The notes under the pieces were generated by a model. It was not told where the DNA came from, did not search any database, and was given only the letters and a program-made list of their open reading frames with translations. The translations under genes were made by a program, and so were the position numbers. Shown here piece after piece: positions 2,077 to 8,857 of a stretch of 64,000 nt of DNA; the first letter of the stretch is position 1; each line of letters begins with the position of its first letter. Origin of the DNA: Gilvibacter sp. SZ-19 (GTDB lineage: Bacteria; Bacteroidota; Bacteroidia; Flavobacteriales; Flavobacteriaceae); contig NZ_CP019333.1 of assembly GCF_002163875.1 (NCBI RefSeq), positions 2,596,864 through 2,660,863 of the forward strand, read 5' to 3'.

Positions 2077-2808
2077 TTACTGGTCTGTCGAAGTTTGTTG
2101 CACTGCTAGGTTGTAAATTACAAGCCCAAATCCGATCTTGTTGATCGCATCTGCAATATTGTAGAATACGTCCATGCTCAATCCGCCAAAGATTCCTTCA
2201 TACCATCCTGGGGTACCAGCCATGTAACCGATTGGGTAAATTGCCCATCCGACCAACACGAACCAACAAAGGATCTTGTGTGAGCTCGCTACTGAACCAC
2301 CAGCCTGCTTGGCGAGCTTTGCAGCACCACCGAGCCAGATCTCGTAAACAATAACGAAGTAAGCGATACCAGAGATAAGACCCCATAACCAGGCATTGTC
2401 TCTGTCCACACCTTCTCCCCAGTATCCTGTTACCAACATCACTACGGAAAGCAAGATAAGCTTCCACATGAGTGATTTTTTGGCTCCGGCCACTTTGAGG
2501 ATCAAGTAGAACTCCACACACATTAGTGGAACGGTAAGAATCCAATCCACATAACGGAAGAAGGTTGGCGATTCCATATTGGTTGCCCAATAATCGCGCA
2601 TGTACCAATAGTGTACTGCAGCTATGAACGTGATGAGTCCAGAAACGAGAATCGATGTTCTCCATTTGCGGTCAAAACTGTTCATAGACAAAAAGAAGAA
2701 GGCAGAAGCTGCCATCATGGCCATGCACCCTACAAAGAAGGTGAAGCCTACGTAATCGTCTGGCGCCAACTTAGGAACCAGTGAAATAAGGTTAGCAAAA
2801 TTTTCCAT
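2077..2808 (-). CDS. Proteorhodopsin, light-driven proton pump
   Basis: This seven-helix retinal protein of 243 residues pumps protons out across the cytoplasmic membrane in light. Helix C carries the proton-pump triad as D88 (acceptor), T92 and E99 (donor) within RYVDWILTVPLMCVE. H66 matches the conserved partner His of the acceptor, 22 residues before D88. K224 in DAINKIGFGL is the retinal Schiff-base lysine. Position 96, which corresponds to the known spectral switch residue 105 of marine proteorhodopsins, is Met, the variant expected for green absorption. The DTE pattern argues against a sodium (NDQ) or chloride (NTQ) pump. It is transcribed away from blh, which supplies retinal, and ends at a strong hairpin terminator. 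Confidence 0.97.
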   Translation of the reverse strand: MENFANLISLVPKLAPDDYVGFTFFVGCMAMMAASAFFFLSMNSFDRKWRTSILVSGLITFIAAVHYWYMRDYWATNMESPTFFRYVDWILTVPLMCVEFYLILKVAGAKKSLMWKLILLSVVMLVTGYWGEGVDRDNAWLWGLISGIAYFVIVYEIWLGGAAKLAKQAGGSVASSHKILCWFVLVGWAIYPIGYMAGTPGWYEGIFGGLSMDVFYNIADAINKIGFGLVIYNLAVQQTSTDQ

Positions 2809-2912: not shown

Positions 2913-3797
2913 ATGGTTAAAACACGGGAAATACTGATTATCATTACGTTTTTCAGCCTTTGGCTAACGAATTATTTTGAGGCCGGATCACAGTCAATTT
3001 TAGCATTTAGCTTGCTGTTTTCTGTAGGTTTATTGCACGGGTCTAACGATCTGCAACTTTTAGGACGTACTTTTTTTAAGAAGAAAAAGACGACTTTTTA
3101 CACCAGATTAGCACTTTATTTGGCCGTAGTGTTTGCTGCATTCAGTTTGTTCTTTACAGCACCTCTGTTGGCGCTTTTCTTGTTTATAGGCGTAAGTGGA
3201 TATCATTTCGGAGAACAACACTGGGACGAATACCTAGGCAGAAGCCCGCTCAATAAGCTGTTCTTTGCGGCTTATGGTTTGGGTATATTGTTCTTACTTT
3301 TCTTTTTGAATCCGGTGGAGACCAGCCAGGTAATCGAACAGTTGACACAGTTTGCCGTACCCAAAATGTGGTACGCCTACGGTCTTTTAATTGCAGCAGG
3401 CCTTTTTGCGATTATATTACCTTATTATATAGGAGCTAAAATGATCAGTCCTCCAAAGGCAGTTCAAGAACTTTTTTTGCTTGTAGTGTTTGCGGTTCTG
3501 TTTCGATGGGCGTCCTTGGTATGGGCCTTTACCATTTACTTTATCTTTTGGCACAGTGTGCCTTCCATAAAAGAACAGGTCGCTTATCTATACGGTAAGG
3601 TCAACAAACAAAGTGTGAAAAAATACCTGCGTGGTGCTATTTGGGTATGGCTGGCATCTATAGTTGGTTTGGTGGTTTTCTTTAAGCTGATGGAAGGCGG
3701 GAATCAATCTTTTCTCACCATTTTCTTTTCGTTCTTAGGAGCTATTACCTTTGCTCATACGGTTATCATAGCGCGTATGTTTGATCAGCAGGAATAG
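2913..3797 (+). CDS. blh: Beta-carotene 15,15'-dioxygenase, Brp/Blh family
   Basis: This integral membrane oxygenase cleaves beta-carotene into two retinals, the chromophore of the neighbouring proteorhodopsin. The 294-residue protein has about eight hydrophobic segments. His residues typical of the family appear near membrane edges: H42 in GLLHGSNDL, H98 and H103 in SGYHFGEQHW, H214 in FIFWHSVPSIKEQ and H282 in ITFAHTV; these are candidate iron ligands. It is divergent from the proteorhodopsin gene and shares a 104-bp regulatory spacer with it. The carotenoid synthesis genes needed to supply substrate are not in this window. The family call is firm; which His residues bind iron is inferred. 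Confidence 0.93.
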   Translation: MVKTREILIIITFFSLWLTNYFEAGSQSILAFSLLFSVGLLHGSNDLQLLGRTFFKKKKTTFYTRLALYLAVVFAAFSLFFTAPLLALFLFIGVSGYHFGEQHWDEYLGRSPLNKLFFAAYGLGILFLLFFLNPVETSQVIEQLTQFAVPKMWYAYGLLIAAGLFAIILPYYIGAKMISPPKAVQELFLLVVFAVLFRWASLVWAFTIYFIFWHSVPSIKEQVAYLYGKVNKQSVKKYLRGAIWVWLASIVGLVVFFKLMEGGNQSFLTIFFSFLGAITFAHTVIIARMFDQQE

Positions 3798-7279: not shown

Positions 7280-7338
7280 TTGCAATTCAAATAGTTTAAA
7301 AAAGCACATATTTCTTTTTTATAAAACAAAGGAGTGAT

Positions 7339-7346
7339 TATATTTG
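7339..7346 (+). promoter_or_regulatory. tRNA-Ser -7 element TATATTTG
   Basis: This is an exact TAnnTTTG match. It ends 11 bp before the first base of the tRNA, which is the expected distance for a transcript with a very short 5' leader. Confidence 0.7.
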
Positions 7347-7357
7347 CATCCGCTAAA

Positions 7358-7442
7358 GGAGAAATGGCAGAGTGGTCGAATGCGGCAGTCTTGAAAACTG
7401 TTGAGGGTCACACCTCCGGGGGTTCGAATCCCTCTTTCTCCG
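7358..7442 (+). tRNA. tRNA-Ser (UGA)
   Basis: The 85-nt gene folds as a class II tRNA with a long variable arm. The acceptor stem pairs GGAGAAA (7358-7364) with TTTCTCC (7435-7441), with discriminator G at 7442. The T arm contains GGTTCGAATCC. The anticodon loop CTTGAAA places TGA at 7392-7394, so it reads UCA and probably other UCN serine codons. The full CCA end is not encoded: after G comes CAA. The gene has its own promoter upstream and a terminator directly behind it. Confidence 0.97.
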
Positions 7443-7446
7443 CAAA

Positions 7447-7480
7447 AGGAAACCCGCAACGAGAGTTGCGGGTTTTTTAA
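7447..7480 (+). terminator. Terminator of tRNA-Ser
   Basis: This is a perfect 10-bp stem, AACCCGCAAC (7451-7460) with GTTGCGGGTT (7465-7474), a GAGA loop and a T-run. Confidence 0.9.
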
Positions 7481-7769
7481 TTTAAGGCCGCGGCAAATGC
7501 TCGCATTTGTAAGCGGCCGTAATTAAAAAACCCAAACGGCTTTGCCGTTTGTGGGTTCAATGCTTGCTCAGGATTCCCACCTGGGATGTTTTGCATCGCA
7601 AAACAATCCCTGCTTTCGTAAGCCCGTGTAATCAAAAAACCCAAACGGCATTGCCGTTTGTGGGTTTCTATGGTTGTATTGGATGCCCCTTTGGGATCAC
7701 GAGCGCGCCTCCTTTGCCAACGGCTTTGGAGGCCGAAGAGCGAGTAATCCTATTAGCGCTTTCCGCTTG

Positions 7770-7836
7770 CGCGGCTACCTTCATCAAACATCCACAGGAT
7801 GTTTGGTTCTGCAAGCAGAACTTCATTGCGGTAATG
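7770..7836 (+). repeat. 67-bp perfect direct repeat, copy 1
   Basis: This copy is identical over 67 bp to 7901-7967, 131 bp downstream. It contains two hairpins and ends in a weak CATT/AATG pair. A third, truncated relative starts at 8030 (GCGGCTACC). Confidence 0.9.
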
Positions 7837-7900
7837 TATTGGATACCCTATTGGGATGCTTCACGCAGTGAAGCAATCCCTAGCCAGTGCCTTCCGCTAT

Positions 7901-7967
7901 CGCGGCTACCTTCATCAAACATCCACAGGATGTTTGGTTCTGCAAGCAGAACTTCATTGCGGTAATG
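7901..7967 (+). repeat. 67-bp perfect direct repeat, copy 2
   Basis: Second copy of the 7770-7836 repeat. Perfect identity suggests recent duplication or ongoing conversion. The flanks differ: the segment before copy 1 reads TTGC and before copy 2 TAT at the hairpin loop. Confidence 0.9.
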
Positions 7968-8113
7968 CCCAGGATTCCCGTCTGGGATCACGAGCGCTGC
8001 GAGTAATCCAACCAGCGCTTTCCGCTTGCGCGGCTACCTAGCTCAAATGTCCACTAAAAACTCTTAACTTTAATCTGTTAATTAATTATTACTCGAGCTC
8101 ATCCAGCTCAAAT

Positions 8114-8857
8114 TTGATGCACAGTATAAAGACTTCATTTCAACCCAACTTTATCATTGCCATTTTGGTTGGTAGTTGGTTGTTTGTTTTTATAATGCTC
8201 GTTAGACCCTTTCAGGAGGAATCATTGTCATTACAGCAGTGGATCATACAAGCCTTAGGATACAGCCTAATCGTTACGGCTTGCTATTTGTTTATAATAC
8301 CAATACAGAAGCAGCTATACGATAAATTACAGCAATGGAATATTCGCTATGAAATTTCCCTGCTCTTGCTTTTCTATGTCGTGGCTTTGCTGCCCAGTTA
8401 TGCCTATCACCGCAGCGAACTTTTAAATGGCCTTTATGATTTACCCGATTTTTTTTTCAAGGTATTTATGCCTTCTGCTGTGGTCTTAAGCCCGCTGCTC
8501 GTTTTTGCCAGAATGTATCTGGTGAAGGATACGGAAAGCACAGAAAAGTCCGTGATTATTCGAGGGACATATAAATTGGACTATTTAAAGTTACCTTGGT
8601 CCAATTTGGTATGCGTGTCGAGTTCTCAAAATTATGTGGATGTATTTTTTTTAGCAGATGGAAGTTTGCAGAAAAAAACCTTACGTACTTCACTTAAAAG
8701 AATTGAAGAGCAAATCCCAGAGCTCCTCCGGGTGCATCGATCGCACCTCATTAACACAGATCATTTTCGATCTTGGAAGAACAGTAAAACACTTTCACTT
8801 ACCCAGATCGAGATTCCAGTGAGCAAAAATTATAAAGAAGGACTCAGTACGCTTTAA
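8114..8857 (+). CDS. Membrane-anchored LytTR-family transcriptional regulator
   Basis: This 247-residue protein has four hydrophobic segments in its first half (about residues 14-32, 45-65, 82-100, 115-135) and a C-terminal LytTR DNA-binding domain (about 145-245). Domain hallmarks are the strand SNLVCVSSSQNYVDVFF, the segment TLRTSLKRIEEQIP and the motif RVHRSHLINTDHF. It lacks a response-regulator receiver domain, so it is a one-component membrane regulator that probably senses a membrane or envelope signal. It lies 87 bp before a serine hydrolase gene on the same strand and may regulate it. The real start could be the second Met, one codon later. Confidence 0.9.
   Translation: MMHSIKTSFQPNFIIAILVGSWLFVFIMLVRPFQEESLSLQQWIIQALGYSLIVTACYLFIIPIQKQLYDKLQQWNIRYEISLLLLFYVVALLPSYAYHRSELLNGLYDLPDFFFKVFMPSAVVLSPLLVFARMYLVKDTESTEKSVIIRGTYKLDYLKLPWSNLVCVSSSQNYVDVFFLADGSLQKKTLRTSLKRIEEQIPELLRVHRSHLINTDHFRSWKNSKTLSLTQIEIPVSKNYKEGLSTL

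Follow-up and report, generated by a model that had tools for sequence, protein, structure and literature searches.

A hairpin array behind tRNA-Ser(UGA)

We analyzed a window of 64 kb from the genome of the marine bacterium Gilvibacter sp. SZ-19 (G000), in which the stretch between tRNA-Ser(UGA) and a LytTR-domain gene (8114-8857) is filled by a dense array of hairpins (Table 1). The same window carries, closer to its start, a gene for what we take to be a microbial rhodopsin-like protein (2077-2808, minus strand) and one whose product presumably resembles the rhodopsin-adjacent carotene-cleaving enzyme (2913-3797, plus strand).

Between positions 7486 and 8055, the array contains nine perfect hairpins with a stem of at least 7 bp, whereas 1000 dinucleotide shuffles averaged 0.16 and never exceeded 2. 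Their stems measure 7-9 bp and their loops 2-3 nt, and the tRNA terminator comes in addition. When imperfect and composite hairpins are included (the GGCCGC stem at 7486-7518, the CCGC mini-hairpins and TACC/GGTA stems of the element that we call B, and the GGAT/ATCC feet), the total exceeds ten, in keeping with the original prediction of at least ten strong hairpins in 570 bp. The region folded better than every shuffle, with MFE z-scores of -7.95 for the plus strand and -7.02 for the minus strand. No other such cluster exists in the window: 570-bp frames held 0.8 hairpins (stem of at least 6 bp) on average and 10 at most, and all frames with at least five hairpins start between 7100 and 7700.

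The fold begins within the tRNA terminator itself, where the 3' arm and U-tract pair with an inverted copy of themselves further on (the T-module of Table 1). Positions 7605-7666 form a second tandem unit, with 82% identity to 7496-7557, and it is in this unit that the AAACGGC stem recurs with its loop changed from TTT to ATT, just as had been claimed. Element B is present as two nearly identical 83-nt copies and a truncated third. The repeat families are irregular, with copies 109-160 nt apart and 62-100% alike, which bears out the view that the locus is not a CRISPR array. Any likeness to the tRNA 3' end within the array is short and degenerate (own score of 10, versus a mean of 8.8 and a maximum of 10 for other arrays). 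Rfam returned sub-threshold matches to the array and none above gathering; Flavo-1 RNA (RF01705) was not found there at gathering, nor among matches up to E 10 in 7300-8200.

Table 1. Features of the tRNA-Ser(UGA) array, in window coordinates.
Feature	Position	Strand	Method or remark
tRNA-Ser(UGA), anchor of the array	7358-7443	+	ARAGORN; Rfam
Intrinsic tRNA terminator hairpin h1, 11-bp stem followed by a T run	7450-7475	+	
T-module, terminator 3' arm and U-tract (7470-7482) paired with an inverted copy (7521-7533)	7470-7533	+	
GGCCGC stem and hairpin h2, CAAATGCTCGCATTTG, enclosed by the T-module	h2 7494-7509	+	
Hairpin h3, CAAACGGC-TTT-GCCGTTTG	7533-7551	+	Slot in G001: CAATGCGC-TGC-GCGCATTG
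A-module 1, GGGAT-[GTTTTGC ATC GCAAAAC]-AATCCC	7583-7610	+	Slot in G002: different palindrome, GCTTCAC..GTGAAGC
Hairpin h3, second copy, loop ATT, in second tandem unit	7642-7660	+	
A-module 2, GGGATCACGAGCG ... CGAGTAATCC around GCCTCC/GGAGGC hairpin	7693-7750	+	
Element B, copy 1	7761-7843	+	CCGC/GCGG mini-hairpin, TACC/GGTA closing stem, CAAACATCC-ACA-GGATGTTTG hairpin, GTTCTGC/GCAGAAC hairpin
A-module 3, GGGAT-[GCTTCAC GCA GTGAAGC]-AATCCC	7853-7880	+	GNA triloop
Element B, copy 2	7892-7974	+	
A-module 4, GGGATCACGAGCGCTGCGAGTAATCC	7984-8009	+	
Element B, copy 3, truncated	8020-8056	+	

Similar arrays lie behind many tRNA genes of the genus

A BLASTN search of the array against its own genome returned 30 places, 18 of them within 1.5 kb behind a tRNA gene (two of the 18 being the array itself), which answers in the affirmative the question of whether such hairpins occur elsewhere behind tRNA genes. 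Eight of the 14 stretches around the places outside the window contain tRNA genes (Pro, Pro, Arg, Val, Val, Phe, Arg, Met, Arg and Leu). Across all 33 tRNAs of this genome, we counted 0-10 hairpins per 800-nt downstream stretch and 0-2 in the 600 nt upstream, apart from one upstream stretch whose four hairpins are the array of the preceding tRNA-Pro; background density was 0.34 per kb (320 kb).

Past the first 45 nt behind tRNAs, hairpin density reached 4.16, 5.11 and 5.05 per kb in three Gilvibacter genomes, and at least three hairpins were present at 16 of 33 tRNAs in SZ-19 and at 13 of 23 and 16 of 23 in the two others. These counts cover all 33 tRNAs of SZ-19 and 23 of 33 in each of G001 and G002, where the tRNAs omitted are mainly those in gene clusters; stretches behind neighbouring tRNAs overlap, and neither these nor orthologous or within-array stretches count as independent. 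In four further genera of the family, the density was 1.44, 1.12, 0.79 and 1.39 hairpins per kb (18 of 33 tRNAs examined in G008, 14 of 34 in G009, 13 of 34 in G016 and 30 of 46 in G017), and one of them, G016, carries four tandem units of the same style, the last diverged, behind tRNA-Arg (anticodon tcg). By contrast, the 700 nt behind the two 5S rRNA genes hold just 0 and 2 hairpins, so that the suggested placement behind rRNA genes was not borne out. Together, these results show that many tRNA genes of the genus are directly followed by an array of DNA palindromes, the tRNA-Ser array being a case in point. Set side by side, the arrays have a common order and little common sequence.

As a side observation, contig C61 of G002 carries two tRNA-Met(CAU) genes 667 bp apart (L116 159-232 and 826-899).

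Recurrent modules and dispersed elements

The T-module is not peculiar to tRNA-Ser. An inverted copy of the terminator 3' arm and U-tract, enclosing a small hairpin, was found at 22 of 62 tRNAs (score of at least 11) versus 1.9% for swapped isotypes, and the trailer itself is repeated in inverted form at 7 of 62 versus 0.7%; the terminator detector returned none at 18 of 80 tRNAs and mis-picked a neighbouring hairpin at some others (e.g. Ala, Met and two Pro). In the 63.7 kb behind 80 tRNAs, the A-module, GGA-[hairpin]-ATCC, matches the tRNA strand 59 times and the opposite strand 31 times, strand counts that are not independent because the pattern is nearly its own reverse complement. It lies on the tRNA strand behind 31 of the 80 tRNAs and is absent from the 320 kb of background. 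Judged by eye from printed arrays, a tandem unit starts halfway through the small hairpin and continues as far as the A-module.

We counted 23, 26 and 21 copies of the 83-nt element B in G000, G001 and G002. Of these, 11, 5 and 13, respectively, fall in the 1.5-kb stretches downstream of tRNAs, which make up 1.2-1.4% of the genome; copies common to orthologous arrays are not independent. Of the 29 downstream copies, 27 are on the tRNA strand, and none of the 70 copies is upstream of a tRNA only. A sequence profile of the element found 3 copies in 320 kb of background. Since just 5 of the 26 copies in G001 lie behind tRNAs and 12 of the 30 own-genome BLAST places lie elsewhere, the elements have also spread beyond tRNAs. 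Within the first kb behind 80 tRNAs, a core word of element C matched the tRNA strand 11 times and the opposite strand once; the background (320 kb) had a single occurrence. In the same first kb, all 14 occurrences of element D were on the strand opposite the tRNA, with none in background. Flavo-1 gave 26 matches in the three genomes; among the 22 matches listed with positions, 17 lie within 2 kb downstream of a tRNA, 16 of these on the same strand (examples behind tRNA genes are L027 3487-3560 and L024 7059-7127).

We had considered element B to be confined to the genus. This idea fits a class sample of 247 genomes, in which G000 and two marginal matches were found, and is overturned by a family sample with matches in 13 of 120; in that sample, 11 genomes other than G000, G001 and G002 carry 1-4 copies each. 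At four loci in other genera (L231-L234), element B lies at the 5' ends of paralogous genes that start with MIKFFR or MIEFFR and belong to one small membrane-protein-like family. By eye, a copy of the gene start lies on the far side of element B, an arrangement that resembles the tRNA-tail copies described below. A motif of this family was not found at 14 Gilvibacter loci, two of them short, that together hold 21 B copies at a distance from tRNAs. B copies away from tRNAs often adjoin element D, GTCATCGAGTG-[variable hairpin]-TATCGAGATGAC (L026, L079, L152, L155, L159, L161 and L164), which is another case of constant feet around a variable core.

Palindromes of this kind could belong to the REP/BIME type, moved as folded single-stranded DNA by a Y1 (RAYT) transposase for which tRNA flanks serve as single-stranded, harmless landing sites. 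Consistent with this idea, the SZ-19 genome has one RAYT-like gene with a Y1_Tnp domain (189 aa; L063 1729-2295, minus strand; G000:C1:1300728-1301295), about 0.9 kb behind tRNA-Ala and with hairpins on both flanks. Element B is dispersed and pairs at the DNA level (see below), 7 of the 32 rows of the B alignment (A1) have CTAC, which reads GTAG on the opposite strand, after the first hairpin, and IS200/REP transposases use single-stranded DNA and hairpins, according to PMC6006769. However, the hairpin on both sides of the gene is a third type, GCACCAGAC-nGA-GTCTGGCGCTAGCG, which is neither B nor A-module. A PF01797 search of the 20 contigs of G001, a genome with 26 B copies, found no match at E 0.001, where a diverged enzyme or an assembly gap could hide one. 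For these two reasons, we do not file B and the A-modules under REP/RAYT. The CTAC tag is also restricted to a minority of copies, and transposition would leave the tandem units and tRNA-tail copies unexplained. Overall, we regard a RAYT origin as unlikely, albeit the strongest of the alternatives.

Array stems keep pairing on both strands alike

In 50 distinct rows of element B, aligned with its own model, 94.9% of paired cells are intact pairs, and we counted 147 changes on both sides of a pair versus 38.5 in shuffled alignments, none of 500 of which reached 147. At orthologous slots of the arrays in three genomes, the 116 stems kept show 95 both-side changes; 57 of them have fewer than three compensatory pairs changed, and fifteen have at least three, some stems being wholly replaced. 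Within the tRNA-Ser array, such whole-stem swaps set CAAACGGC/GCCGTTTG against CAATGCGC/GCGCATTG and GTTTTGC/GCAAAAC against GCTTCAC/GTGAAGC. The slot filter dropped 57 aligned stems (not made unique) as lost, with more than two mismatches, and others for gaps or poor flanks, and the count omits isotypes with two genes. Hence, the covariation expected across relatives is present and strong, and the hairpins are neither restricted to one place in the genome nor devoid of covariation.

Strong covariation would ordinarily point to a transcribed structured RNA, as the original prediction had allowed. Read-through from the tRNA promoter could carry the hairpins into a transcript, where they might act in trailer processing, as a sponge or as stacked terminators. 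This proposal gains from the fact that copies of B and Flavo-1 downstream of tRNAs lie almost uniformly on the tRNA strand, from the MFE z-score near -8 and from the many both-side changes. The mismatch classes, however, tell against it. G-U is no commoner than A-C in element B (16 versus 15) or in array stems (15 versus 14, with 28 other mismatches, of 882 cells), whereas a control set of 42 distinct tRNAs of the same genomes gave 41 versus 2 in the acceptor and T stems. The stems nearest the tRNA, mainly terminators, are also RNA-like at 5 versus 1, in few cells. A looser array count (both directions, misaligned stems, noisy) had given 54 versus 29 and is superseded by the filtered one. Flavo-1, an Rfam RNA family within the same arrays, is RNA-like with 32 versus 5, a weaker control than tRNA given that 23 of the 32 G-U cells lie in three outer RNAalifold pairs, without which the count is 9 versus 3. 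In addition, a strong terminator stands between the tRNA and the array, which itself lacks an above-gathering Rfam match. We therefore judge a structured RNA to be improbable as the explanation of the arrays.

Equal numbers of G-U and A-C mismatches would also be expected from relaxed selection, and the argument for DNA thus needs their combination with many both-side changes. Taken in combination, the data show that array stems change in sequence and yet preserve Watson-Crick pairing, equally on the two strands.

The loops are asymmetric between strands. Among 119 distinct triloop hairpins past the first 45 nt, 39 have a c-GNA-g tip and 5 the reverse complement, c-TNC-g; a GNA loop occurs in 1 of 31 background triloop hairpins. 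DNA hairpins with GNA or GNNA loops are described in PMC4686876 as having extraordinary stability. The DNA and RNA parameters of ViennaRNA assign equal energy to GNA and TNC triloops and are uninformative on this stability. The ratio of GNA to TNC is 17:1 at leading-oriented tRNAs, 4:4 at lagging-oriented ones and 2:0 at unassigned ones, with replichores drawn from the weak GC skew of the sampled stretches. Element D puts TNC loops on the sense strand, so that loop asymmetry differs between families, and for this reason we leave the leading/lagging split uninterpreted.

Growth and turnover of the arrays

The tRNA-Ser(UGA) locus is syntenic in all four genus genomes compared. At this locus, a 120-base stretch of G001 is repeated directly and exactly with a period of 115, and in G003 the tRNA is separated from its trailer by an insertion of 134 new bases together with a perfect duplicate of the final 17 bases of the tRNA; beyond the inserted unit, the trailer of G003 resembles those of the other genomes. 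Copies of the tRNA's own tail (18 nt, up to four mismatches) lie behind 7 of 80 tRNAs versus 84 of 5880 swapped pairs (8 of 80 when a case that is the next tRNA gene is included). Thus, the arrays turn over by local tandem duplication and, in one clear case, by addition of a unit at the tRNA 3' end. The earlier suggestion of a REP-like multi-part element growing next to tRNA genes stands as regards tRNA linkage (18 of 30 places) and growth (G001 and G003), but membership in REP/RAYT was not borne out.

We also considered a single dispersed mobile element and rejected it. The newest unit, that of G003, is single-copy: BLAST of the inserted stretch against its own assembly (2.3 Mb, 510 contigs) returned itself and the tRNA end only, and phage and plasmid collections gave no match.

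Separately, the tRNA-Leu 3' half at L031 (about 3160-3420; G000:C1:1805.2 kb), with its own terminator and an element-C hairpin, follows repeated AGGTACAACA words that are also found behind the full tRNA-Leu at 1717.6 kb. This partial tRNA-Leu may mark the distal border of an integrated element about 88 kb long.

Discussion

We propose that the arrays are REP-like DNA palindromes, and that template switching promoted by their hairpins keeps them perfect and enlarges them at sites where single strands are laid bare by tRNA transcription, a mechanism whose chances of being right or wrong we consider about equal. Heavy tRNA transcription, together with the replication forks that it disturbs, would expose single strands, and these would fold into very stable hairpins. 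A polymerase switching template inside such hairpins could restore perfect arms or replace whole stems, and the same switching could leave inverted copies of the tRNA trailer and unit duplications. The dispersed REP-like palindromic elements B, C and D would gather at the same sites, and the target of selection or mutation would be folded DNA rather than an RNA product. A strand-symmetric process presumably keeps the DNA palindromes perfect, and template switching would be the simplest such process. Indeed, template switching has been proposed to make and preserve perfect stems (PMC8794818); that study deals with RNA genes, in which it finds two-step compensations to proceed mostly via G-U. 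Even at loci that apparently run against replication (Pro, Pro, Phe, Arg and Met), as far as weak GC skew allows orientation to be assigned, element B keeps to the tRNA strand, which points to transcription.

One feature goes beyond this account. The conserved feet (GGAT/ATCC and TACC/GGTA) around variable cores suggest that a protein may recognize the folded strand, and template switching alone does not explain them. Carried further, the arrays might be folded-DNA cassettes anchored at tRNA genes, with constant feet and exchangeable cores, added at the tRNA 3' end and kept by a strand-reading enzyme, such that shape is inherited rather than sequence, in an attC-like logic without genes; we rate this extension as a long shot.

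The arrays might also act as topological insulators. E. coli BIMEs are linked to gyrase, and BIME-like arrays could bind gyrase or a nucleoid protein and relieve supercoils downstream of heavily transcribed tRNA genes. Their location 3' of such genes and their constant feet with variable cores would suit this role. However, rRNA operons are heavily transcribed too and have almost none of these hairpins behind their 5S genes, and the four other genera do without dense arrays at most tRNAs, all of which makes the role very improbable. It is equally hard to believe that the arrays are scars of tRNA-targeting integrative elements, whose repeated 3'-end integration would account for stacks of incomplete tRNA copies and for the ends of such elements (element C): tRNA 3'-end copies do lie behind Gln, Asn, Val, Leu (L031) and Ser tRNAs, several beside element C, and L031 has its partial tRNA-Leu, but a recognizable tail copy exists at just 7 of 80 tRNAs at the threshold used, most hairpins have none, and the unit inserted in G003 exists in one copy and is much too small to hold an integrase gene.

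The arrays bear on how covariation is read. Covariation is usually taken as a strong sign of a functional RNA. The arrays supply a large natural set of stems that covary strongly, and the G-U versus A-C count of these stems argues for DNA-level pairing. Template-switch mutation, REP-like elements and false positives in RNA-family discovery can all be tested on this set, and the arrays offer a direct handle on how tRNA transcription may shape the instability of adjacent DNA.

Comparison with known systems

In our search of the open-access literature, we found no description of such tRNA-linked arrays. Among the nearest known counterparts are the GTAG- or CGTC-tagged REP/BIME elements with their RAYT transposases. 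Both kinds of element are short, mainly intergenic palindromes that pair at the DNA level and form mosaic clusters, and a RAYT-like gene is present in the same genome. The REP literature describes tagged palindromes and single-stranded DNA transposases, including a Bacteroidetes subclass with atypical secondary structures (PMC3733652, PMC6006769), and the available portions of these papers do not mention tRNA-linked arrays. Our arrays differ in being linked to tRNAs in one orientation, with cores that vary from slot to slot within fixed feet. Moreover, B is not the hairpin of the RAYT gene, G001 is without a Y1 match, and the tag is limited to the 7 of 32 B rows.

Flavo-1 RNA shares the tRNA-linked arrays of the genus with our elements; it differs in having no match in the tRNA-Ser array, another structure and an excess of G-U. 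Integron attC arrays likewise keep a folded single-strand architecture while sequence varies and grow beside an anchor, whereas no cassette genes were seen in the arrays here. Finally, hairpins generated by template switching, as in quasipalindrome correction and as far as PMC8794818 describes them, have in common with ours perfect Watson-Crick stems, multi-base compensatory changes and inverted copies of nearby sequence; the difference is that here they are massed behind tRNA genes, in tandem units with constant feet.
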